From Agromyces terreus (GTDB taxonomy: Bacteria > Actinomycetota > Actinomycetes > Actinomycetales > Microbacteriaceae), in NCBI RefSeq assembly GCF_009749465.1, contig NZ_WBIS01000001.1:806001-870000 (forward strand): a DNA stretch of 64,000 bases, read 5' to 3'. How positions within the stretch are numbered: the first letter of the stretch is position 1; each line of letters opens with the position of its first letter. Below, in pieces: positions 43,609-57,958 of this stretch. The position numbers and the translations under genes are program-made. The notes under the pieces were generated by a model, which was not told the DNA's origin, did not search any database, and was given only the letters and a program-made list of their open reading frames with translations.

Positions 43609-43684
43609 GGGTCTGTGGCGCAGCTGGTAGCGCACCTGCATGGCATGCAGGGGGTCAGGGGTTCGAGTCCCCTCAGATCCACCA
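43609..43684 (+). tRNA. tRNA-Ala (anticodon GGC)
   Basis: A complete 76-nt cloverleaf ends in an encoded CCA. The acceptor is GGGTCTG/CAGATCC with the G3:U70 pair that marks alanine tRNAs. The anticodon stem CCTGC/GCAGG closes the loop ATGGCAT with GGC at the anticodon. The T arm has TTCGAGT. An integrase gene follows, so the 3' end is the probable integration site. Confidence 0.97.
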
Positions 43685-43686
43685 AG

Positions 43687-43726
43687 AACCCCTGATGAAT
43701 CGCAAGATTCGTCAGGGGTTTTTTCG
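43687..43726 (+). terminator. Intrinsic terminator after tRNA-Ala
   Basis: A 15-bp stem (43687-43701 with 43706-43720, one G-U pair) closes a GCAA tetraloop and is followed by a run of T (TTTTTTCG). It directly follows the tRNA 3' end, so it probably belongs either to the tRNA gene or to the inserted element. Confidence 0.85.
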
Positions 43727-44133: not shown

Positions 44134-45351
44134 ATGCCACGCAGCAGAATCGAACCCGGATCGCACGGAGAGATCACCTATCACGACCTGCCCGACGGCC
44201 GCGTTCGCGGCACCGTCATCTTCCGCCGCACCGACGGGAGCTACGGCAAGCTCCGAACTGTCGCCGCTTCCAGGGCTCGAGCGCGCAGGACGCTCATCGA
44301 CCGCGTCGGAGACGCGTACGAGGCGGTGCATGCGCACGGTGGCGGTCTGACGCCAGACTCGCTGTTCATCGAACTCGCCCAGGAGTACATGGAACACGTG
44401 GCGTTCACCGGCGACCAACGCGATACGACTCGGCACGAGAACAACCGGCTCATTCAGAAGAAGATCGCGCCCCTGATGGGATCGCTCGCGCTGCGGGAGA
44501 TCAAGGCGACCACGATTCTGCGGGTCTACAAGACGATCCATCGGGATACACCGCGTCAGGCTGACACGTGCAAAGCGCTGATCAGCCAGATCTGCTCGTA
44601 CGCCGTCATGAACGACCTCATGGTCGCCAACCCCGCCCGCGAGGTCAAGAGCGCGAAGCGGCGACCGAAGCTGATCTACGCGCCCGACGCCATGCAACTT
44701 GAGGCCTTCCGATCGATCATCCGCGACTACCAGAACCGTGAGGACCGGATGGGGCCGCGACCGTCGGATCTGCTCGGCGATGTGGTCGACCTCATCCTCG
44801 CGACCGGTGCCCGCGTGAGCGAAGCAGTCGGTCTCAAGTGGCAGTTCGTCGACCTCGAGTCGGAGCCGCCGAGCATCACGATCGCGGGCAAGGTTGTGGA
44901 CACGAAGGGCCAGTCCAAGCACTACGAGGACTATCTCAAGTCGGAGTCGGGGTGGCGCCGGATCCTCGTGCCCGCTGAACTGGTGCCGATGCTTCGTCGT
45001 CGCAAGCTGTCGAGCGATGGCAATGAGTTCGTCTTCCACACGCGGACTGGGTCACCCAACGGCACTCAGGACATCCATCGAGCGCTGCGGCGCGTGCGGG
45101 AGTGGGCCGGCCTCGACGAGGAACTCGTGCCGCACGCGCTCCGGAAGTCGGCCGTAACCGCAGTCGCCGATGCGCTGGGCATCGAAGGTGCGGCGCGCTT
45201 CGCCGGCCACAAGCGATCCCGCGTGACGGAGCAGTACTACGCGAAGCGTGCCGTTCAAGCACCTGATACCTCCCAGGTGCTTGGTGCTCTTCAACGATCG
45301 GGGATGAGCGGCGGGATCGTTGACATCAACGCAAAGCGCGCTGCACAATGA
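44134..45351 (+). CDS. int: Tyrosine-type site-specific integrase
   Basis: The 405-aa protein is a phage-type tyrosine recombinase. The N-terminal part has the arm-type DNA-binding and core-binding segments. The catalytic residues are Arg227 (ATGARVSEAVGL), His and Arg in PHALRKS, His in AGHKRS and Tyr368/369 in TEQYYAKR. It lies next to the tRNA-Ala 3' end, so it probably catalysed integration there. The start is ATG at 44134. It runs away from the tRNA, as in many actinobacterial integrative elements. Confidence 0.93.
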   Translation: MPRSRIEPGSHGEITYHDLPDGRVRGTVIFRRTDGSYGKLRTVAASRARARRTLIDRVGDAYEAVHAHGGGLTPDSLFIELAQEYMEHVAFTGDQRDTTRHENNRLIQKKIAPLMGSLALREIKATTILRVYKTIHRDTPRQADTCKALISQICSYAVMNDLMVANPAREVKSAKRRPKLIYAPDAMQLEAFRSIIRDYQNREDRMGPRPSDLLGDVVDLILATGARVSEAVGLKWQFVDLESEPPSITIAGKVVDTKGQSKHYEDYLKSESGWRRILVPAELVPMLRRRKLSSDGNEFVFHTRTGSPNGTQDIHRALRRVREWAGLDEELVPHALRKSAVTAVADALGIEGAARFAGHKRSRVTEQYYAKRAVQAPDTSQVLGALQRSGMSGGIVDINAKRAAQ

Positions 45352-45375
45352 GTTCGGCCGCCTGCTGTCAATACC

Positions 45376-45391
45376 GTACCGATTTTGGTAC
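45376..45391. promoter_or_regulatory. Inverted repeat likely bound by AbiEi
   Basis: GTACC-GATTTT-GGTAC lies 22-37 nt before the abiEi ATG, in an AT-rich stretch with TACTCT (45389-45394) as a possible -10 box. AbiEi antitoxins repress their own operon by binding inverted repeats in the promoter, so this is the natural candidate. The site is AT-rich compared with the surrounding DNA. Confidence 0.55.
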
Positions 45392-45413
45392 TCTTTTGGC
45401 ACGAGGAGGGCTG

Positions 45414-45947
45414 ATGGGGTACCGACACGAGCTCTGGGAGATCGCCGCTGCGTATCACGGGGTCGTGACCGTCGCAGAGGCCGAGGACGCCGGCGTGCCA
45501 GCCGTAGAGGTGCGCAAGCTCGCCTCGCGGGGCGTGCTGCGCGCGTACGGGCATGGCGTCTATACGCACCGTGAGGTGCCGTCGTCGCGATTCACCGAGC
45601 CGGCCGTCGCTGTTGCCCTCGCGGGCGACGGCGCGTTCCTGCATCGCGACGCGGTCTTCACCCTGCTCGAGCTCGGGCAGTTCAATCCACGAGCGATCCG
45701 AGTCGGCACTCGCCGACGCGTGCGCCGAACGCTTCCGGAGTGGATGAGCTTGGAGCCCCGATCGGATGTCAGTGACGACGACCTCACGCAGATCGATGGC
45801 ATCGCGGCGACGACCGTCGCGCGCGCCCTGTACGACGTGCGGCCGCAGATGCCCCGCGAACGATGGACCGCCCTCGTCGACGACGCGGAACGGCTGCAGC
45901 TGCTCGACGTTCGTGAAGGCGCTGAGCTGAAGTCAGTCGCGCCATGA
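45414..45947 (+). CDS. abiEi: AbiEi family antitoxin (type IV toxin-antitoxin)
   Basis: The 177-aa protein has the N-terminal winged helix of AbiEi antitoxins (YHGVVTVAEAEDAGVPAVEV then the RKLASRGVLRAYGHGVY wing) and the C-terminal domain that counteracts the toxin. The ATG at 45414 follows GAGGAGG. It overlaps abiEii by 4 bp. AbiE systems block phages by growth arrest and also stabilise mobile elements. It can repress its own transcription through the inverted repeat upstream. Confidence 0.9.
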   Translation: MGYRHELWEIAAAYHGVVTVAEAEDAGVPAVEVRKLASRGVLRAYGHGVYTHREVPSSRFTEPAVAVALAGDGAFLHRDAVFTLLELGQFNPRAIRVGTRRRVRRTLPEWMSLEPRSDVSDDDLTQIDGIAATTVARALYDVRPQMPRERWTALVDDAERLQLLDVREGAELKSVAP

Positions 45948-46867
45948 CCGAAACGCCACCGCTGAACGTGACGCAGCTGAACGACCGGCTCGCAGAGGTC
46001 GCCGCCGAGCTCGGGATCCCCATCACGCGTGCACGCCTGATGCTCTGCACCCTGATCGTCTCGCAGATGCTGCCCGACGCGGTCGCGATCAAGGGCGGCA
46101 TGGGCGTCAAGCTCCGCTTCGGGGAACGCGGTACGCGCGCGACATCCGATCTGGATGTCTCCACCCGGGTTCGCGGCGAGGAGTTCGAACGATCCTTCCG
46201 AGAGAGCCTCGCGGCGGGATGGGGCTCTGTGCCGCCGTCGAAAGGCGAGCGGGCGCGGAATCCGGCGGCCGGCGCTCGTGTCGCGTTCTCAGCGTCGGTT
46301 CGCGCGGTACGCCGTCATGATCCTGGTCTCGCGCGGCCCGAGTACGTGATGCACCCGTACCGGGTATCGCTCTCGTTCCTCGGCAAGGCGTGGGGAGCGC
46401 TCGATGTGGAGGTCTCCGACCCCGAGATCGATTCGAACGCTCACACGCTGAAGGCCATCGACGGCGCACTCGTGCAGTTCGGTGAACGCTTCGGGTTCGG
46501 ATCGCTGGAGCCGGTCGAACTCGTCGAGCTCGAGTACCAGATCGCGCAGAAGATCCACGCGGTGACCGACCCCGTATACACGCGGGCCCACGATCTGGTC
46601 GACCTCCAGTTGCTCTGGACAGCGGAACCCGACCTGGAGGCCCTGCGCCAACTGTGCGTGCGAACGTTCGACTGGCGGCGGCAACAAGCTTGGCCGCCTG
46701 TTCCGCTGCGCTCCATGGATGGATGGGAGACCGCATACGAGGACGCGCGCGATGAAACCTTGGTGGAGGCGAGCACCCTCGTGCTTCCCGACCTCGAATC
46801 AGCGCGAGCCTGGCTCGCACAGGTCATCGCCCGCATCGACGGCGCGAGCCGTGCTGGCAGCCGGTGA
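45944..46867 (+). CDS. abiEii: AbiEii nucleotidyltransferase toxin
   Basis: The 307-aa protein belongs to the DNA-polymerase-beta-like nucleotidyltransferases; AbiEii-type toxins such as MenT modify tRNA acceptor ends. Motif I is visible as KGGMGVKLRFG with the two aspartates Asp69 and Asp71 (ATSDLDV). Motifs III/IV are in LDVEVSDPE and in QKIHAVTDPVYTRAHDLVDLQLL. The ATG overlaps the abiEi stop (ATGA). The pair is complete with no frameshift. A GTG-started small frame overlaps its stop. Confidence 0.9.
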   Translation: MTETPPLNVTQLNDRLAEVAAELGIPITRARLMLCTLIVSQMLPDAVAIKGGMGVKLRFGERGTRATSDLDVSTRVRGEEFERSFRESLAAGWGSVPPSKGERARNPAAGARVAFSASVRAVRRHDPGLARPEYVMHPYRVSLSFLGKAWGALDVEVSDPEIDSNAHTLKAIDGALVQFGERFGFGSLEPVELVELEYQIAQKIHAVTDPVYTRAHDLVDLQLLWTAEPDLEALRQLCVRTFDWRRQQAWPPVPLRSMDGWETAYEDARDETLVEASTLVLPDLESARAWLAQVIARIDGASRAGSR

Positions 46868-48330: not shown

Positions 48331-48419
48331 AGAGCAGCCCTGAGCCACCCATCACGAGATGCCACGCCTCTTGCAGATCGAGGGCGCACACCTTGATCCC
48401 GTAGGGGGAGGTGGCGCGG

Positions 48420-51400
48420 GTGACGGTGTCGATGCGGGTGATGAGCGCAGGCGACGGGTACCGATACCTCCTTCGCACGGTTGTCGCCGGTGATGGCGTC
48501 CGCTCGCTTGCGACGCCGCTCACCCGGTACTACGAGGCGAAGGGCACCCCGCCGGGCCGGTGGATGGGCGCTGGCCTCCGGGGCCTCGGCATCAGCGTCG
48601 ACACGATCACTGCGGGCGAGGAGGTCACCGAAGCGCAGTTGCAGCTCCTCCTCGGCCATGGCCGCGATCCGGTCACGGGTGAACCGCTCGGCCGTGCCTA
48701 CCCGCACTACGAGCAGAACGTTGACTCGCATCGACGTGCGGTCGCCGGATACGACTTCACCTTCTCGGTGCCGAAGTCCGCGAGCATCCTGTGGGGCGTT
48801 TCCGATGGGCGCACGCAGCAGACGATCGTGCGTGCGCACCACGCCGCGGTCGAGCAGGTCGTCGCATTCATGGAGCGCGAGGTCGCTGCAACGCGCATGG
48901 GCATCGCGGTCGGCAATGCGGGCGGCGGCGCCGTTGCGCAGGTCGAGGTGCACGGGCTGATCGCGACCGCGTTCGACCACTTCGACAGTCGTGCCGGCGA
49001 CCCGCACCTGCACACGCACGTCGTGGTGAGCAACAAGGTGCAGGCCGTGCTCGATGGCAGGTGGCGCTCCCTCGACGGGCGCCCGTTGCACAGTGCGGTG
49101 GTTGCGCTGTCCGAGCTACACGGGGCGCTCTTCGCCGATGAGCTCACGCGTGCACTCGGCGTCGAATGGGACCAGCGTGCACAAGGCCGCGACCGCAACC
49201 CCGCCTGGAGCATCCGCTCGGTTCCTGAATCGCTCGTCGCCGAGTTCTCGACCCGCGCCCGCCGCATCGACGAGGCGACCGACCAGCTCATCACAGCGTA
49301 CGTCGCCATGCACGGGCGTCGGCCGACCAGAGCCGTGATCATGAAGTTCCGCGCGCAAGCGACCCTCGCAACGCGCCCGCCCAAGCAGGTGCGTTCACTC
49401 GCCGAGCTCACCGCGGGGTGGCGTGCACGCGCGACGAGCGTCCTCGGCACCGATGCAACGCACTGGGCGACGAACGTCGTTGCCGCACCGGGCAGCCAGG
49501 CTCTCGTGCACGGCGTCGACCTCCCCGGCGACGTGGTCGAAAAACTCGCCCAGCGCGTGCTCGCAACCGTCGCCGAGAAGCGTGCAACCTGGCGCCACTG
49601 GAACCTCGCCGCCGAAGCCGCCCGCCAGACCATGCACGTCCGCTTCGCAACACCCGACGACCGGCTCTCCGCCATCAGCCAGGTCGTCGAAGCTGCCGAG
49701 CACGCCTCGCTGCGCATCACCCCGCCCGAGCTCGCGACCACGCCCGCTGCGTTCCGACGCGACGACGGCAGCAGCGTCTTCCGCCCGAAGCACAGCGCGG
49801 TGTACACGTCCGAGGCGCTGCTCGCCGCCGAGGCACGACTCCAGGCCAGAGCAGCGGATGTCTCGGGCCCGACCATCCCGGCAAACCTGCTCCGCAGTCT
49901 CGCGACAAAGCGCCTGCGCCGCGGCGGCACCCTCACAGAGGCGCAGCACGCAGCACTCACCGCGATCGGCTCATCGGGCCGCGTCGTCGACCTCCTCGTC
50001 GGCCCGGCCGGCGCCGGCAAGACCACCGTCATGGGCGCGCTCCGCCAGACCTGGGAAGCCGTCCACGGCCGCGGCAGCGTGATCGGCCTCGCACCCTCCG
50101 CCGCAGCCGCGCACGTGCTCGCCGAAGACCTCGGCATTCGCACCGAGAACCTCGCGAAGTGGTGGCAGAACCACCTCGTCCGCCGCACGAGGTTCACCCG
50201 CGGCCAGCTCGTGATCGTCGACGAGGCATCCCTCGCCGGCACCCTCGCCCTCGACCGCGTGACGAACCTCGCCGCGCGAGCCGGCGCGAAGGTGCTGCTC
50301 GTGGGGGACTGGGCGCAGCTCCAGTCCGTCGACGCGGGCGGCGCGTTCGCGATGCTCGCGCACGATCGCGCCGACACCCCCGAGCTGACCGACGTGCACC
50401 GCTTCGCCCACGACTGGGAGAAGACCGCGTCGCTCGCGCTCAGGCACGGGCACGAGACATCCATCGATGCCTATCTCGCGCACGATCGCTTGCGTGAGGG
50501 TGACAGTGAACAGATGGCGGATGCCGCGTACCGCGCGTGGCGCGACGACGCGCGTGCCGGTCGGGTGAGCGTGCTGATCAGCGATTCGAACGACGGTGTC
50601 GCCGCGCTGAACGAGCGAGCCCGCAACGATGCGATCCTCGACGGACGCGTCGACCCTGGGCGCGAGGTCGGGCTGCACGACGGTGCCAGAGCGGGTGTGG
50701 GCGACACGATCCTCACCCGCCGCAACGACCGCACCCTGCACGCCGGGCGCGGCTGGGTGCGCAACGGCGACCGGTGGACGGTGACCGCGATCCGCCGCGA
50801 CGGCGCCATCGAAGCCCGCCACGCGGGAGCCAGCCATGGCACTGGGGTCGTGCTGCCGGCCGCGTACGTCGCCGAACACGTCGAGCTCGGATACGCGGTC
50901 ACGGCGCACCGCGCACAGGGCCTCACGACCGACACCGCGCACGTCGTCATCGCCCGCGGCATGACCCGCGAGAACCTCTACGTCGCCATGACCCGCGGCC
51001 GCGCCGCGAACACGGCCTACGTCGCGCTCGATACTCCGGATGTCGCGCACGCCGGCCTTCGCCCGCGTGACTGCGCCGACATTGACGCCCGGTCGGTGCT
51101 CGTCGGCGTGCTCGCACACGTCGGCGCCGAACTCTCGGCACACGAGACGATCACCGCCGAACAGGACTCGTGGGGATCGATCGCGCAGCTCGCCGCCGAG
51201 TACGAGACCATCGCAGCCGCCGCGCAACGAGGCCGGTGGACGCGGCTCGTTCGGGGGAGCGGACTCACCGCTGAGCAGGCGGATGCCGTCATCGGTTCGG
51301 ATGCGTTCGGGCCACTCTGCGGGGAGTTGCGTCGAGCGGAGGCGTACCACGTCGACGTGGAGGCGCTGCTCCCGAGGCTGGTCGCCACGCGTGGCTTCGA

Positions 51401-51893
51401 GGATGCCGCTGACATCGCGTCCGTGTTGCGAGCACGTGTAACGCGAGCTGCCGTTGGTGCGCGAGGACATCGCGACCCGCGCTTGATCGCGGGTCTGATC
51501 CCGAGTGCGGTCGGCCCGATCGACGCGGAGTCTCGGCGTGCCCTCGACGAGCGCGCGACACTCATCGAACGTCACGCCGATGCGCGACTCGACCGTGCGC
51601 TGACGGATCGCGAACCGTGGATACGAGCCCTAGGAGTCCAGCCGCGCGGTATGGGTGCTGCTGCATGGCGGCGGTGTGCGTCAACCGTTGCCGCATATCG
51701 CGATCGGTTCGATATCCAGAACGACGAGCGAACGACCGCCGTGAACGGATCGGTGTCCACGGTCCAGCGAGCGGATGCTGCACTTGCCCAAGCCCGGGCG
51801 AAAGAGGCCCGTCGCGTTGCGGAGCAAGACGTCGAATTCGCTTTTGCTCAGGCGCTACAGTCTAGGTCAGTGCCTACGCTCGAACGTCGATAA
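48420..51893 (+). CDS. MobF family conjugative relaxase with helicase domains
   Basis: This is the DNA-nicking and unwinding protein of conjugative mobilization (TrwC/TraI type). The 1157-aa protein has an N-terminal relaxase with tyrosines in GYRYLL and LTRYYEAKGTPPG, and the metal-binding triad His196, His198 and His200 in GDPHLHTHVVV. The SF1B helicase part has Walker A GPAGAGKTT at about 528-536, Walker B VIVDEAS and later motifs up to VTAHRAQGLT and YVAMTRGR. GTG at 48420 (VTVSMRVMSAGDGYRYLL) has GGGGGAGG upstream; GTG 48411 is an alternative. It is full-length. Confidence 0.92.
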   Translation: MTVSMRVMSAGDGYRYLLRTVVAGDGVRSLATPLTRYYEAKGTPPGRWMGAGLRGLGISVDTITAGEEVTEAQLQLLLGHGRDPVTGEPLGRAYPHYEQNVDSHRRAVAGYDFTFSVPKSASILWGVSDGRTQQTIVRAHHAAVEQVVAFMEREVAATRMGIAVGNAGGGAVAQVEVHGLIATAFDHFDSRAGDPHLHTHVVVSNKVQAVLDGRWRSLDGRPLHSAVVALSELHGALFADELTRALGVEWDQRAQGRDRNPAWSIRSVPESLVAEFSTRARRIDEATDQLITAYVAMHGRRPTRAVIMKFRAQATLATRPPKQVRSLAELTAGWRARATSVLGTDATHWATNVVAAPGSQALVHGVDLPGDVVEKLAQRVLATVAEKRATWRHWNLAAEAARQTMHVRFATPDDRLSAISQVVEAAEHASLRITPPELATTPAAFRRDDGSSVFRPKHSAVYTSEALLAAEARLQARAADVSGPTIPANLLRSLATKRLRRGGTLTEAQHAALTAIGSSGRVVDLLVGPAGAGKTTVMGALRQTWEAVHGRGSVIGLAPSAAAAHVLAEDLGIRTENLAKWWQNHLVRRTRFTRGQLVIVDEASLAGTLALDRVTNLAARAGAKVLLVGDWAQLQSVDAGGAFAMLAHDRADTPELTDVHRFAHDWEKTASLALRHGHETSIDAYLAHDRLREGDSEQMADAAYRAWRDDARAGRVSVLISDSNDGVAALNERARNDAILDGRVDPGREVGLHDGARAGVGDTILTRRNDRTLHAGRGWVRNGDRWTVTAIRRDGAIEARHAGASHGTGVVLPAAYVAEHVELGYAVTAHRAQGLTTDTAHVVIARGMTRENLYVAMTRGRAANTAYVALDTPDVAHAGLRPRDCADIDARSVLVGVLAHVGAELSAHETITAEQDSWGSIAQLAAEYETIAAAAQRGRWTRLVRGSGLTAEQADAVIGSDAFGPLCGELRRAEAYHVDVEALLPRLVATRGFEDAADIASVLRARVTRAAVGARGHRDPRLIAGLIPSAVGPIDAESRRALDERATLIERHADARLDRALTDREPWIRALGVQPRGMGAAAWRRCASTVAAYRDRFDIQNDERTTAVNGSVSTVQRADAALAQARAKEARRVAEQDVEFAFAQALQSRSVPTLERR

Positions 51894-52166: not shown

Positions 52167-53090
52167 CTAAGCTGGCGGATGCTGCGAGATACCGAATCCG
52201 GCGCGAACGAGATCATCGAACAGCATCGACGGGCTCTCGAACTGTTCACCGGATGAGAGCGTCACCATGGCCGTGACGCTGACGATGCTCGTCGCGTTCT
52301 GCAAAGCCTGCACGTTGCCGCGAATATTCGCAGCCGCGATCGGCCAGTGGCCTGCTTCTCCATCCTCGACGCGGTGCGGTAGGCGGTCTGCGCGGGCGTT
52401 CACGGGCGGATAGAAGATCGCGGGTGAACCTACTCCGTCGAGCGACCAATGGAGGGCGACCGACTCAACCACGATGTCGAGTAGTCCCTTGTTCCGCACG
52501 GAGATTACGAGCGCTAGCCCCCAATCGTTGAGTTCGATGCTCGGGCCAAAGACTTCCGCGAAGCCCTGAACAGGCGCCGTGAGAGCTTGGTTGCCGCTGA
52601 GAACCGCCGCAGACAACTCGACGATCGCGTTGCGAGTGGGCGATACGGCAGAGGCAATCGCCATCAGGATCTGCTCCAGATTGGTGTCATTGACGGAGGC
52701 ATCCAGAAGCGCAGACCGCAGCCCGGGATCCTCACTGTCAGACTTCCATCGTCGTAATTCGTCCACAGAAAAATCTCCGGGCCGAACCTTGTCGACTAGG
52801 TTGTGGTGCGCCTGGCATAGCAGGATGAGATTGTCGATCGATCGACGCTCTTCATCAGTCTTTGACGAGTCGTAACGCGGTCCACCAGGCTCCGCAGCAG
52901 CGATGTGTGCGATCTGCACATCGACGAGTGGCTCGGCGCTCTCGTACGTAAGGATCTCGCGCGAGCAGCCCGGGAAGTAACACGTGCCACGCGCGAGTCG
53001 GAAGATCGCCTTCTGCGTGCCGCTCGTGAAGGAGTGCGGGTTCGGAGATGCCTTGGTGTGGCCACCATGGAGCGGATTAGGCGACTTCAT
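52167..53090 (-). CDS. HNH-type nuclease-like protein with a C-terminal domain
   Basis: The 307-aa protein has an HNH-like zinc finger: Cys37-x4-Cys42, then VQIAHIAAAEPGGPRYD (His62), then Asn87 in DNLILLCQAHHNLVD with Cys92 and His95/96. This is the HNH fold with its structural zinc and catalytic His/Asn. The C-terminal 150 residues (from about SIELNDWGLALVISV) look beta-rich and are unlike known HNH partners. It overlaps the dynamin 1 gene by 14 bp. ATG 53090 (MKSPNPLHGG) follows GGGGAG by 8 nt; ATG 53096 is an alternative. Lower GC than the host core. Confidence 0.72.
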   Translation of the reverse strand: MKSPNPLHGGHTKASPNPHSFTSGTQKAIFRLARGTCYFPGCSREILTYESAEPLVDVQIAHIAAAEPGGPRYDSSKTDEERRSIDNLILLCQAHHNLVDKVRPGDFSVDELRRWKSDSEDPGLRSALLDASVNDTNLEQILMAIASAVSPTRNAIVELSAAVLSGNQALTAPVQGFAEVFGPSIELNDWGLALVISVRNKGLLDIVVESVALHWSLDGVGSPAIFYPPVNARADRLPHRVEDGEAGHWPIAAANIRGNVQALQNATSIVSVTAMVTLSSGEQFESPSMLFDDLVRAGFGISQHPPA

Positions 53091-54795
53091 CTGCATAGCT
53101 CCCCGATAGGAGCCGGTTCGCCTCATCGGCGATCGCGCGAAGCTCGTCAGCAGCCGACGTGCGGGCGTTGTCAGCGCTCAAGATCTCGTCCTGCGCCGCG
53201 CGAATCTCATCTAGGAGTTCGTCGAGCGGCGGATCGACGATGGCGGCCAGCTCACGACGCGCATCGGATGCGATCTTATCGGCGTGACCCATGATTTCGG
53301 TGACGAGTGCGGAGCGCTGGCGTTCGCCTTGGATCTGTGCGGCCCGCGCTTCGCGCTCGTTCTTCCAGACTTCGTAGCCTGCCGTCCCGGCCGAGATGAC
53401 GAAGCCACCGACCTTCGCGGCTTTGCCGATCTTGTCTGCGATCTTCAGCGCCTGCCATGGCTTGAACTTGTAGCCGAACGTGTGGCCGACGTTCTTGACG
53501 AGCTTGTGTCCGAGTGAGCCTGAAGCCTCGCGCAGTCCGTCGCCAGCGCCCCACCAGCCCTGTCCGCGCTTGATGAGGTCGCCGATCTTCTGCCAATCCA
53601 CCGCGAGCGGTGCCGTCGCTTGGGCAGCTGAAGTTGAATCACCGGAGTGGACTTGATCGGGAGCATCGAGCGAGACCGCGCCCGTTGGCCGGAGTAGGAG
53701 GCCGAGTCGATTGCTATCACCAATATCCAGCAGCTCCTCGGACAACGTGTCGAGCTCGGAGTCGGTGAGCCTGTTAATCCGCCCGGCGAAATCCGTCGCG
53801 TGACGTTCGAGAGACTCGATGAGACGAGCCTCTGCGCCAGCGAGTATCTCGCGAGCAGCGGTTTGGTCGTCCGGGAGCGTCGAAGCGGCGTCCACGAATC
53901 CGACGACGTCCACGAGACAACCCTGCTTGAATTCGGCATCCGCGCGTGCGAAGCCCTGATCGAGCATGAAGCGCCGCTGCGAGATGGCACGGCTCTGCGC
54001 GGCAAGCAGCGCGAGGGCAGCGCGAGACGTGTCATCGGGCGTGAACAGCTCTTGCGCCTCATCGCAGAGCTGTCGGATCAGGTGCACCGGCTGGCGCAGC
54101 CGAGCGAGCTCGCCTCGTTCAGCGCTCACCTGGTTGATCATCGCCCGCAGGCTGTCGATGCGGGACCGCTGCCTGAACGCGTCGGCGCGGCTGCCACCCT
54201 CGAGGCTTCGCATGTAATCGACCGAGTCGACCTCGACGATGGGCAAGTTGAAGGTTGCCGTCCCTAGCGCATCTTGGACGGCCTGTTGTCTCACGCCCGC
54301 CTCTGCGGCGCGTTTGCTCGTCTGTGTAATGACCACGATCATCTGCCCATGCAACCGAAGTCCGGTGGCCAAGCGACGGAGGAAGTCGCGGGAAGCATCG
54401 TCGAAGAGGCTGACCGTGACGACGAACAAGATGAAATCTGCGTTGCCGATGGCATCCATCGCGAGTTCATCGTGACTACGGAGACCAGATTGGACGCCAG
54501 GTGTGTCGACGAGCATAACTGCGCCGTCCCAGTCGTATTCGGTGACTTCGCCTGTGGCGATATCCGCGTCGATGAGCGGCTCCACCGCACCATCGGTCAG
54601 TGCCCGAATGAGACTCGACTTACCACTGCTGTACTGGCCGGTGAGAACCATACGCGGCTTCTCGGCTTGATGGATCGTAGCGCGCGCGAGCAACCCTGTG
54701 GCCGCGCTGCCCGATGCTTCACCCAGTACGGCTTGAAGCCGTGTGAGCAGACGTTCCGATTGTCCTGGCAGTTCATGGATGAGAACCTTCGTCAC
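53077..54795 (-). CDS. Dynamin-like GTPase 1 (LeoA/LeoBC-like)
   Basis: Bacterial dynamins bind GTP and act on membranes. The 572-aa protein has G1 GQYSSGKS at 53-60, G2 within TGEVTEY, and G3 DTPG at 97-100. The G4 region TQTSKR (157-162) departs from the usual T/N-K-x-D, so base specificity may be altered. A long helical part follows, then KFKPWQALKIADKIG at about 444-457 and a hydrophobic stretch ending GTAGYEVWK, as in LeoA-type proteins. Its ATG overlaps the dynamin 2 stop by 4 bp (ATGA). It is the middle gene of three. GC is lower than in the host core. Confidence 0.82.
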   Translation of the reverse strand: MTKVLIHELPGQSERLLTRLQAVLGEASGSAATGLLARATIHQAEKPRMVLTGQYSSGKSSLIRALTDGAVEPLIDADIATGEVTEYDWDGAVMLVDTPGVQSGLRSHDELAMDAIGNADFILFVVTVSLFDDASRDFLRRLATGLRLHGQMIVVITQTSKRAAEAGVRQQAVQDALGTATFNLPIVEVDSVDYMRSLEGGSRADAFRQRSRIDSLRAMINQVSAERGELARLRQPVHLIRQLCDEAQELFTPDDTSRAALALLAAQSRAISQRRFMLDQGFARADAEFKQGCLVDVVGFVDAASTLPDDQTAAREILAGAEARLIESLERHATDFAGRINRLTDSELDTLSEELLDIGDSNRLGLLLRPTGAVSLDAPDQVHSGDSTSAAQATAPLAVDWQKIGDLIKRGQGWWGAGDGLREASGSLGHKLVKNVGHTFGYKFKPWQALKIADKIGKAAKVGGFVISAGTAGYEVWKNEREARAAQIQGERQRSALVTEIMGHADKIASDARRELAAIVDPPLDELLDEIRAAQDEILSADNARTSAADELRAIADEANRLLSGSYADEVA

Positions 54796-56969
54796 AATGC
54801 GCCTCCTTCGATGTGCTCACTGATGCTTAATCTGACTCCTGTGTGAGCCCAGGCCAAGGCCTGCCATGCTTCTTGGGCTCCGAGCGCCAGCGGATGTGTG
54901 AGTTCGACTCTCACCTGCAAGTCCGTCCACTCTCGGACCGTCACCACACCATCCGACAGGTTCCGAACCAGCTGGATGGCGCTGGTGGACGACACTGCGG
55001 ATGCTGCTGTGGGCAGTACACGCTCGGCATCCTCCGGAACCGGGAAGAGCACCAGCTCACTGAACTCAGGCTCGGGGAGCTCCACAGCGATGCCTGCACC
55101 ACGCCAACGAGTGGCGCGTATCAGTGCTGAGGCCGCCCTCCCGCGGCCCATGATTCGCAGGAGATCGCGCGCGATCTCGGTATCGACTTCAGCCAGCACG
55201 GGCTCGAGCTCCATCGTCATGGTGTGCTGGAGGGTGCGCTCGGCCTGCTCAAGCATGTCAATCCGGACCGAGTGTCGTGCTGCCTCCTGCTCGACTGCCC
55301 GCTGCCACGTGGCACGGACCACCTCGCCTGCCTGCGCCAACTGCTCATTGACTTGAACCAGGAGCGGAGACAGCTGGTCATGCACGTTCTCTCTTCGCCG
55401 TTTGCGAACGTCGGCGGCGCTTCGGAAGACCTTGTCACTGACCCAGTCGATGCCACGGCTCAAGCCGAGCAGTCCTGTGAGGAGACCGACGATCGCGCCA
55501 AGGACGAGCCCGATTGCGTTGCCCAAGCCTGGGCCCAAAGCAGTGCCCGCCAGTGCGCCTATCTTCGCGCCAAGAACGGTCGTACCGACCGCGGTTGCGA
55601 ATCTTCCCCCAACCTTCACCAGGCGATTGCCCCAGATCGCGCCCCGCCCTCCGAGTTCCTGGAACTCGCCGACGGCGAGGTGCGACCAGTCATCGGCGAC
55701 GTCGAATGCGATCTGATTGAGATCTCGCTCCAGACGTCGGCCAGCATGGTCGACGTCGGCACTGATCTCTTCCTTCAGCAGTCCCATCTCGCTGGCCCAC
55801 GCGGCGTTGATCTTCGCCTCGCTGAGGCTGACGTCGACCCGCTCGATCCAACGCTCTCGACGTGAGAGCGCCACTGAGAACGCGGCCATGAGTTCGTTGT
55901 GCGCGTCATCGACGCGACGATCTGCGCGCCTCACGAAGTCGTCGAGGCTTCCTCGGGCGGTATCGAGCATCATGCGCACGGTCTTCGTCACCGTGGCGGT
56001 TGTGCTTGCGGCGTCCAGCAGTTCCCGACGGATGAAGTCCCCGATACTCGCTACGCGTCGAGCGTCGGCAGTTCGGTCCTTCTGGACACCGATCTCGGTG
56101 AGAAGGTGTCCGACGCGACTTGCTAGCCGTATGTCGCTCGCGTCGTCGGAAGTCAGATCGCTGGACTGAGACATCAGCGCGGCTTGGGCGTGAATCATCA
56201 CTGCCGAGATGTAGCGGCCGCCGGCCCGTGCGAGGTGGCGGTCAATCGGCTTCAGGTTGCCGAGAGTGTCGCCGCCGAAGACGAAGTCCGGCTCCTCCAA
56301 CAGATCGAGCAGGTCCAGCTGGTCCGTGACGTCCCGGAGGCAGTTCAGGGCCACAAGTATCGGTTTGCCGTAGTCGGCGAGTTGCTCCAACGCGCGGCCA
56401 GTTCGTTCCTGCGTCGCTTCGTTGGTCGCGACCCAAAGGATCAAATCTGAGTCGGCCACTTGGCTGAATGCTTCCGCATAGTCCGCGTCCCCATCCATCG
56501 CGCCGACTCCGGGCGTGTCAACGATCTCGATGTCGTGGCCGAGCACCGTCCCGATGTGTGACTCACGGGTGGTGCGCTGGCCTCCGCGGCCGACGCTCGC
56601 ACCGTCCCCGCCCGTCAGAAACTCAAACAAGGTGCTCTTGCCCGCCATCGTCCGCCCCATCAGGACAATCCGGAATGGGCGATCCACATCACGACCGAGC
56701 AGTAGTCGACGAGCCTCGGCGACGCGGTGGGTCGCATCGGTCAGAGGGGCGAGGACCGCGTCGCGTATCGCAACATCCTCTGCCGAGTCCAACTGGGATC
56801 TGAGCGACGCGGCCGACCGGTCGAGTGCCCGTTCCACGGCTCGAGCGAGCTCGATCAGTCGCGCCTTCAAAGCGGCTAGAGACGTCTCGATCTGGGGATC
56901 GAGGCCATAGAACTGTTGGCGCGCGCGCTCATCGCCCGGGATTCTCGGCTGGTTCTGCAGGATCATCAT
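54792..56969 (-). CDS. Dynamin-like GTPase 2 with a glycine-rich membrane segment
   Basis: The 725-aa protein has G1 GRTMAGKS at 105-112, G3 DTPG at 151-154 and a G4-like NCLRD at 209-213. A helical stalk precedes a Gly/Ala-rich hydrophobic segment at about 457-503 (KIGALAGTALGPGLGNAIGL) that looks like a membrane-inserting hairpin. A long helical tail follows. The two dynamins differ in this segment: only this one has the long hairpin. ATG 56969 or the next ATG may be the start. The gene leads dynamin 1 and the HNH gene. Paired dynamins of this type resemble the Eleos defense architecture. Confidence 0.82.
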   Translation of the reverse strand: MMILQNQPRIPGDERARQQFYGLDPQIETSLAALKARLIELARAVERALDRSAASLRSQLDSAEDVAIRDAVLAPLTDATHRVAEARRLLLGRDVDRPFRIVLMGRTMAGKSTLFEFLTGGDGASVGRGGQRTTRESHIGTVLGHDIEIVDTPGVGAMDGDADYAEAFSQVADSDLILWVATNEATQERTGRALEQLADYGKPILVALNCLRDVTDQLDLLDLLEEPDFVFGGDTLGNLKPIDRHLARAGGRYISAVMIHAQAALMSQSSDLTSDDASDIRLASRVGHLLTEIGVQKDRTADARRVASIGDFIRRELLDAASTTATVTKTVRMMLDTARGSLDDFVRRADRRVDDAHNELMAAFSVALSRRERWIERVDVSLSEAKINAAWASEMGLLKEEISADVDHAGRRLERDLNQIAFDVADDWSHLAVGEFQELGGRGAIWGNRLVKVGGRFATAVGTTVLGAKIGALAGTALGPGLGNAIGLVLGAIVGLLTGLLGLSRGIDWVSDKVFRSAADVRKRRRENVHDQLSPLLVQVNEQLAQAGEVVRATWQRAVEQEAARHSVRIDMLEQAERTLQHTMTMELEPVLAEVDTEIARDLLRIMGRGRAASALIRATRWRGAGIAVELPEPEFSELVLFPVPEDAERVLPTAASAVSSTSAIQLVRNLSDGVVTVREWTDLQVRVELTHPLALGAQEAWQALAWAHTGVRLSISEHIEGGAL

Positions 56970-57100: not shown

Positions 57101-57793
57101 CTACCCGTAGATCTCAATCACGCTCGGGTCGTAGAGCTCGATCTGCGCGACTCCGTTGTAGAGGGTGATGAGCCCCTCGGTGCAGAGCGTCTTCCCTCCG
57201 TCGATGGGCTCGAGACCGCCGATGTCCCAGATGACGATCTGGAAGCGCTCAGGATCGGGATAGTCGCGCCCGAGGTTGAGGAAGACGTCGTCGTAGTCGT
57301 TGCCGCCGCCGGCCAGCGGCCCACAGACACGCTGGGTTGTTCCGGCGTAATCGACGGCTTCATTCCACGAGATTCCGCCTCCGGGCTGCTGTGGCGCCGG
57401 GGCATCAGGCGACGCTGCTGCGGCATCAAGACTGTCGGAGCACAGCCCGTCCTCGGAGAGCAGTCGGATGGCATCCAGCGAGATGTACTCAGCGAGGTCA
57501 CTGCACTCTCTGACACCCAATCGGTCTACCTGGCGTCTCGCAGAGGCGTAGTCGATCAGCACTCCGTACGTGGCGCCGCAGTTGCCGCTCATCCACGCAT
57601 ACTCGTCGTTCACATCCTCGGTCGACTCTGAGCGCTCATGGGCGACCAGTGCATCGAGCATCTCATCGCAGCTCACCTCGGATTGGGGTGAGGAGTACGA
57701 GCTCGAGCCATAGCTACTGCATCCCACAAGGACGAGCGGAACAGCGACGGCGAGGAGTGCGAGGAGGGGAGTCGGGCGCGGCACGGGTCTCAT
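57101..57793 (-). CDS. Secreted lipoprotein with six extra cysteines
   Basis: The 230-aa precursor has a lipoprotein signal (MRPVPRPTPLLALLAVAVPL) with the lipobox LVGC and lipidated Cys25. The mature part has six further cysteines in SCDEM, GNCGAT, RECSDL, GLCSDS, RVCGPL and TLCTEG, which could form three disulfides outside the membrane. No family recognised. The tandem ATG codons make the start uncertain by one codon. It runs in the same direction as the dynamin genes and ends 131 bp before dynamin 2. A functional link is unproven. Confidence 0.65.
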   Translation of the reverse strand: MRPVPRPTPLLALLAVAVPLVLVGCSSYGSSSYSSPQSEVSCDEMLDALVAHERSESTEDVNDEYAWMSGNCGATYGVLIDYASARRQVDRLGVRECSDLAEYISLDAIRLLSEDGLCSDSLDAAAASPDAPAPQQPGGGISWNEAVDYAGTTQRVCGPLAGGGNDYDDVFLNLGRDYPDPERFQIVIWDIGGLEPIDGGKTLCTEGLITLYNGVAQIELYDPSVIEIYG

Positions 57794-57958
57794 CATCGCG
57801 GCTAGAAAACCAGAAGGAAGTCGCCTGACCGTGAAAGCCTGACCCCAGTTCTGGTGCCATGGCTTCCCTGCCCAACCCGCGTCGGTGCGGAATGATGAAC
57901 AGCAGCGGCGCATCCTTCGTCGCGCGTCAGCATCGACCCGACCAGGAGTGCCCTACCT

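Follow-up and report, generated by a model that had tools for sequence, protein, structure and literature searches.

A 64,000-nucleotide stretch of the Agromyces terreus genome (contig NZ_WBIS01000001.1, positions 806,001 to 870,000; here called the window) carries three overlapping minus-strand genes, which encode two dynamin-family GTPases of the Eleos type and a protein that joins a Cap5-type HNH domain to an immunoglobulin (Ig)-like domain (HNH-Ig). The HNH gene is an optional but co-inherited partner of the dynamins, and the system is a clade-restricted three-gene variant of Eleos whose third slot has been lost, and perhaps exchanged, in close relatives. We infer a defence role for the trio and an effector role for HNH-Ig. 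The features of the operon, numbered within the window, are as follows.

54792..56969, minus strand: dynamin 1, a LeoBC-like dynamin-family GTPase of 725 amino acids (aa), from PADLOC LeoBC, Pfam MMR_HSR1 and an AlphaFold2 model
55425..55676, minus strand: Gly-rich hydrophobic segment of dynamin 1 (residues 432-515), a candidate membrane paddle, mostly of low predicted local distance difference test score (pLDDT) and lying between long helices
53077..54795, minus strand: dynamin 2, a LeoA-like dynamin-family GTPase of 572 aa with a GTG start, from PADLOC LeoA, Dynamin_N and DLP_helical
53077..53090, minus strand: 14-bp overlap of the dynamin 2 stop and the HNH start
52167..53090, minus strand: HNH-Ig protein of 307 aa, the third gene, from domain matches and the homologue alignment
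52728..53030, minus strand: Cap5-type HNH domain (residues 21-121), from PADLOC, Cap5 structure-chain matches and the alignment
52191..52640, minus strand: Ig-like beta-sandwich domain of the HNH protein (residues 151-300)

The open reading frames (ORFs) were found with the layout given in a first-pass annotation of this DNA, that is, three minus-strand genes with overlaps of 4 and 14 bp. The 4-bp overlap between the dynamin genes was taken from the ORF coordinates, and the 14-bp overlap between dynamin 2 and the HNH gene (ATGAAGTCGCCTAA) was counted from the HNH ATG at 53090. The residue corresponding to this ATG is the start of 11 of the 15 other rows in the HNH alignment; in the remaining four the called start adds 12 residues (P0004 and P0007) or two (P0015), or gives a shorter protein (P0021). 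The first in-frame ATG, at 53126, which would give a 50-bp overlap, was rejected because of those 11 rows. A scan for promoters and terminators gave a result at chance level. Upstream of dynamin 1, on the same strand, lies a 270-aa lipoprotein-like ORF (57101-57913), which was rejected as a fourth operon member as it had no family match and no homologue in the 11 compared loci.

The HNH family is rare, with 26 matches, the query included, in about 5.8 billion proteins, and 16 of these (again counting the query) reach at least 65% identity over at least 80% of the query. Since close homologues exist in this large protein search, the HNH ORF is not a chance ORF. An HNH cluster and a dynamin cluster were taken to share a contig when their longest contigs were equal in length to the base. 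At least seven of the 11 other HNH clusters with at least 65% identity and contigs of at least 5 kb shared a contig with a dynamin homologue, as did at least seven of the eight whose contigs reach 8 kb. All three proteins were matched on contigs of 8,457 and 72,231 bases; those of 19,095, 25,666 and 61,580 bases matched HNH and dynamin 1 only, among the matches listed. Distances in the HNH protein were correlated with distances in dynamin 1 (r 0.85, slope 1.08, 15 non-independent pairs) and in dynamin 2 (r 0.79, slope 1.44, 10 pairs). In a dynamin 2 tree of 35 rows, one 11-row clade (support 99/94) held all five HNH-bearing rows together with two rows described below, one with a remnant of the HNH gene and one with a protein of two predicted transmembrane (TM) segments, and the remaining four rows showed no HNH evidence. 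This pattern fits ancestral presence of the HNH gene, followed by loss and replacement.

The dynamins were also found without the third gene. Homologues of dynamin 2 were present in 3/398 genomes at family level, 3/394 at class level and 1/60 at genus level (the source genome being among the matches in each), in 2 of 366 genomes of another genus of the family, and in 3 of 297 genomes of the order (alignment query, 1e-50; source genome included); further genome sets gave 3/41, 1/6 and 1/3, and the sets overlap one another. Nine actinobacterial dynamin-pair loci were read as DNA (the window, G086, G078, G632, G958, G1160, G1213, G1463 and G1453), and an intact HNH gene was present in the window only. 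When the HNH alignment was searched against five of the remaining eight genomes, no full-length relative was recovered, and the single partial match fell on a different contig of G1160. In G958, where dynamin 2 is 90% identical, about the first 29 HNH codons are kept and are followed by unrelated sequence, a decayed 5' remnant. In G1160 (dynamin 2 88% identical) the third position holds a 162-aa ORF with two predicted TM segments and the same 14-bp overlap (L031:8754-9242, minus strand); GC content is highest at its third codon position, and no homologue of it was found in viral contigs or plasmids. HNH-Ig was thus rejected as a fixed part of all Eleos-type pairs, with eight of the nine loci lacking an intact copy. 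The first-pass annotation had proposed the HNH protein as a coupled third component; conservation of the coupling within one clade bears this out, and its extension to a fixed three-gene operon fails. Co-occurrence across genomes, which had been set beforehand as a test, likewise holds inside that one clade only, two distant HNH homologues being found without dynamins.

Several points weigh against co-inheritance of the HNH gene and its replacement as drawn here. The contig comparison covered 26 HNH rows, 120 listed dynamin 2 rows and 120 listed dynamin 1 rows, 34 and 26 of the latter two being matched computationally and the rest by eye, which added no further shared contig; another 62 dynamin 2 and 55 dynamin 1 matches lie outside it. 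The dynamin 2 tree holds only five HNH-bearing rows, those with a dynamin 2 match, and the clustering of their labels was not significant (67/500 shuffles). Contig 156287 carries both dynamins of the same clade and no HNH among the matches listed, and for a close HNH cluster whose contig measures 46,638 bases no dynamin partner is among the matches listed. In several genome searches scoring was limited to a handful of top candidates in each genome (e.g., 3), so that relatives may have been missed. The two-TM ORF of G1160 is known from one sequence, with codon-position GC and the overlap as its only support.

These same distributions bear on a simpler explanation, which we consider somewhat unlikely: that HNH-Ig is a self-contained defence or toxin gene riding behind the dynamins, that the pair works alone, for example by DynA-like membrane stabilizing and lysis delay, and that the overlap reflects compact packing. 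The eight HNH-less loci are in its favor, as is the finding that B. subtilis DynA delays lysis after phage infection and is protective (PMC8844932). So are the two distant homologues, which stand beside other genes: the HNH-Ig proteins of G343 and Arthrobacter bussei are about 35% identical to that of the window, and no dynamin lies near them within the 18 and 9.3 kb read. However, the seven or more further close HNH clusters that share contigs with dynamins, and the correlated divergences, argue against it, and no close HNH relative (at least 65% identity) was found in another context, contexts being known for seven of the 11 contigs of at least 5 kb.

With the HNH alignment at 1e-5, 16 of the 398 family genomes matched, at full length only in the source genome and G343, the other matches being limited to the HNH region and its edge; a genome-contig search found one distant HNH locus. 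Viral contigs held no relative of the HNH alignment, the dynamin 2 alignment or the two-TM protein, and phage records gave no dynamin 2 match. Among plasmids, 204 records matched part of the HNH protein, always at less than 80% coverage of the query, and six had distant dynamin 2 matches, of which all three inspected were dynamin pairs. A megablast search of E. coli genomes found no near match to the Klebsiella Eleos DNA.

PADLOC matches of the two GTPases, reported as E-values with no PADLOC cut-offs applied, were LeoBC for dynamin 1 (2.9e-50) and LeoA for dynamin 2 (2.5e-68), in agreement with the earlier proposal that the paired dynamins are an Eleos core. Pfam identified MMR_HSR1 in dynamin 1 (2.1e-14), and Dynamin_N (2.4e-10) and DLP_helical (5.8e-07) in dynamin 2. 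Both proteins have a P-loop (GRTMAGKS and GQYSSGKS, respectively) and DTPG, and a motif check of both found the canonical [NT]KxD G4 motif in neither. The AlphaFold2 model of dynamin 1 (mean pLDDT 81) had BDLP, IniA and LeoA as its best Foldseek matches in the PDB. Hydrophobicity of this protein peaks at residues 485-503, inside the segment 432-515 that, by analogy with BDLP and LeoA, may be a membrane paddle, and a C-terminal alpha/beta domain (about residues 610-725) lies outside the LeoBC match. Dynamin 2 scored 54.3 bits against the NCBIfam LeoA/HP0731 model (NF041922), far below its cut-off of 325, and for this reason we call the pair Eleos-type. The order, LeoBC-like then LeoA-like, is the same in the Klebsiella plasmid locus L040. 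In that locus a 277-aa protein with no Pfam or PADLOC match is encoded 222 bp downstream of the LeoBC-LeoA pair on the same strand (L040:6804-7637).

The HNH domain of the third protein matched the PADLOC models 'Effector, Endonuclease' (3.7e-22) and SAVED_HNH (3e-20), both of which we take to be effectors of the cyclic-oligonucleotide-based anti-phage signaling system (CBASS), and also the solved Cap5 chains 7rwm and 7rwk. The best PADLOC match of the protein was PDC-M68A (8.5e-27, residues 21-154). The C-terminal model aligns with Ig-like folds. For SAVED there was no sequence match past the HNH part and its edge, and it did not appear in the C-terminal fold list, whose silence excludes nothing. 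Because the protein model (mean pLDDT 59.9 over its whole length) is of low quality in the N-terminal half, the HNH assignment is based on sequence. The same HNH domain type stands at the N-terminus of two NCAB2 (NACHT C-terminal) proteins on plasmids, and therefore recurs as an effector-like domain. On the Marinovum plasmid pMaD1 (L043:2223-10404) an HNH...NCAB2 protein is 1458 aa long, and its gene shares 14 bp with the end of the preceding gene, which encodes an NTPase-like protein of 1272 aa. We regard HNH-Ig as a predicted nuclease with a putative effector function. That it is instead a regulator or antidote of the dynamins would suit its third position and overlapping start, its nuclease activity being a prediction, but we judge this very improbable: residues C37, C42, H62, N87, C92, H95 and H96 (the HNH and putative zinc-ligand positions) do not vary across the 16 alignment rows, 13 of 15 rows show higher conservation in the HNH domain than in the Ig-like domain, and the dynamins persist without the HNH protein.

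Eleos is one of the closest known systems. It has been described as dynamin-like in a Bacillus cereus survey (PMC11811056) and as enriched in Rhodococcus in a survey of Actinobacteria (PMC10482375), and a Rhodococcus paper lists it, for R. erythropolis, as two proteins (PMC12915292). The window shares with it the tandem LeoBC-like and LeoA-like GTPases, the defence-gene neighborhood and the matched PADLOC models. It differs in the third gene overlapping the LeoA-like gene by 14 bp and in the C-terminal domain that dynamin 1 carries past the LeoBC match. As the third overlapping gene departs from the two-gene make-up, we call the system a variant of Eleos. HNH-Ig resembles CBASS Cap5 in its HNH domain (residues ~21-121), with the HNH and zinc positions kept, but has, according to its model, an Ig-like C-terminal domain where Cap5 has SAVED. 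No CD-NTase or nucleotide cyclase gene was found among the 10 (Pfam) or 8 (PADLOC) window proteins scanned or the last two ORFs of the surrounding element (HsdR, ankyrin). Cj-DLP1/2 and the fused DynA are likewise paired heterotypic dynamins on membranes (PMC6104087), DynA giving phage resistance (PMC8844932), whereas the available text of these two papers mentions no nuclease gene with them. The PADLOC candidate PDC-M68A is alike as the best match of the HNH protein, but the match spans only its HNH part and linker; PDC-M68 is not named in the literature searched. No description of a dynamin-HNH trio was found in that literature, which covered few subscription papers and preprints, nor in the available text of PMC12757443, PMC11973324, PMC10999152, PMC12915292 and PMC13335696.

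The operon lies in a 22.1-kb integrative element at a tRNA-Ala gene, so delimited because it is bounded by two copies of a 48-bp repeat, the second of which (46/48 bases identical) falls at the window-equivalent positions 65767-65814, past the window end. Further features of the element are:

43648..43695, plus strand: attL, 3' part of tRNA-Ala and flank, one copy of the 48-bp repeat
44134..45351, plus strand: tyrosine integrase of the element (Phage_integrase, 6.9e-16)
45348-46867: AbiE
48411..51893, plus strand: MobF relaxase (NF041492, 5.1e-69), convergent with the HNH-dynamin operon

Its cargo comprises the integrase, AbiE, a DUF6880 protein, the MobF relaxase, the trio, the lipoprotein-like ORF, a type I restriction-modification system (HsdM, HsdS and HsdR) and an ankyrin-repeat protein. 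Family scans and the tRNA-Ala repeat confirm the first-pass placement of the trio beside AbiE and type I restriction-modification genes in a tRNA-borne element. In G086 a MobF relaxase 64% identical to that of the window is convergent to the HNH-less dynamin pair (L022:5509-13902), and the pair may travel with this type of element; no MobF-type relaxase was found at the other dynamin loci within the stretches read. Neighbors of the dynamin loci include BrxL (G086), BrxC (G632), and HmaB/HmaC with PDC-S19 (G958). In both G958 (L030:1547-8875) and G1160 (L031:13155-19970) dynamin 1 is preceded, at a distance of about 10 bp, by a same-strand DUF3644 (PDC-S19) gene, which itself follows an HmaC-like gene, family scans having been run on the G958 proteins only. 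The dynamins in these two genomes may be the tail of an Hma operon.

This neighborhood bears on whether the operon is antiviral at all. The paired dynamins LeoA and LeoBC have been connected with vesicle release, and LeoA and LeoB mutants of E. coli H10407 release fewer vesicles (PMC4159319). The operon might thus serve membrane remodeling or vesicle release as described for LeoABC, or mobility and maintenance of the MobF element, for which the same convergent order of relaxase and dynamins in G086 also speaks. We think this quite improbable, as the other loci show no such relaxase in the stretches read, three of the relatives have defence genes of the bacteriophage exclusion (BREX) or Hma kind as neighbors, and the HNH domain belongs to an effector type.

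We tentatively propose, with confidence a little short of even, that the Eleos-type pair and HNH-Ig work together as a single anti-phage module: the dynamins would sense membrane damage, and HNH-Ig, as a predicted nuclease, would cut DNA. The LeoBC-like and LeoA-like GTPases would form a heterotypic membrane complex, as other bacterial dynamin pairs do, and membrane stress caused by phage would change the assembly of that complex. The change would then pass to the HNH protein via its Ig-like domain, in place of the SAVED sensor of Cap5. Once activated, the HNH domains would break down DNA of the phage or the host. Since the dynamins of close relatives stand without the HNH gene, its product would be an effector that can be added or exchanged, and the dynamin pair could also work alone. 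A broader form of this proposal, which we rate as unlikely, is a modular defence in which the dynamin pair is the membrane sensor, the third slot holds the HNH-Ig nuclease in one lineage and the two-TM protein in another, both genes beginning with the 14-bp overlap, and assembly triggers DNA destruction or membrane killing.

If true, this would be the first dynamin-gated nuclease. A clade with an overlapping nuclease gene, and sister lineages with its loss or replacement, form a natural deletion series for studying how paired bacterial dynamins protect against phage, whether by membrane repair alone or also through a signal that sets off a killing effector.
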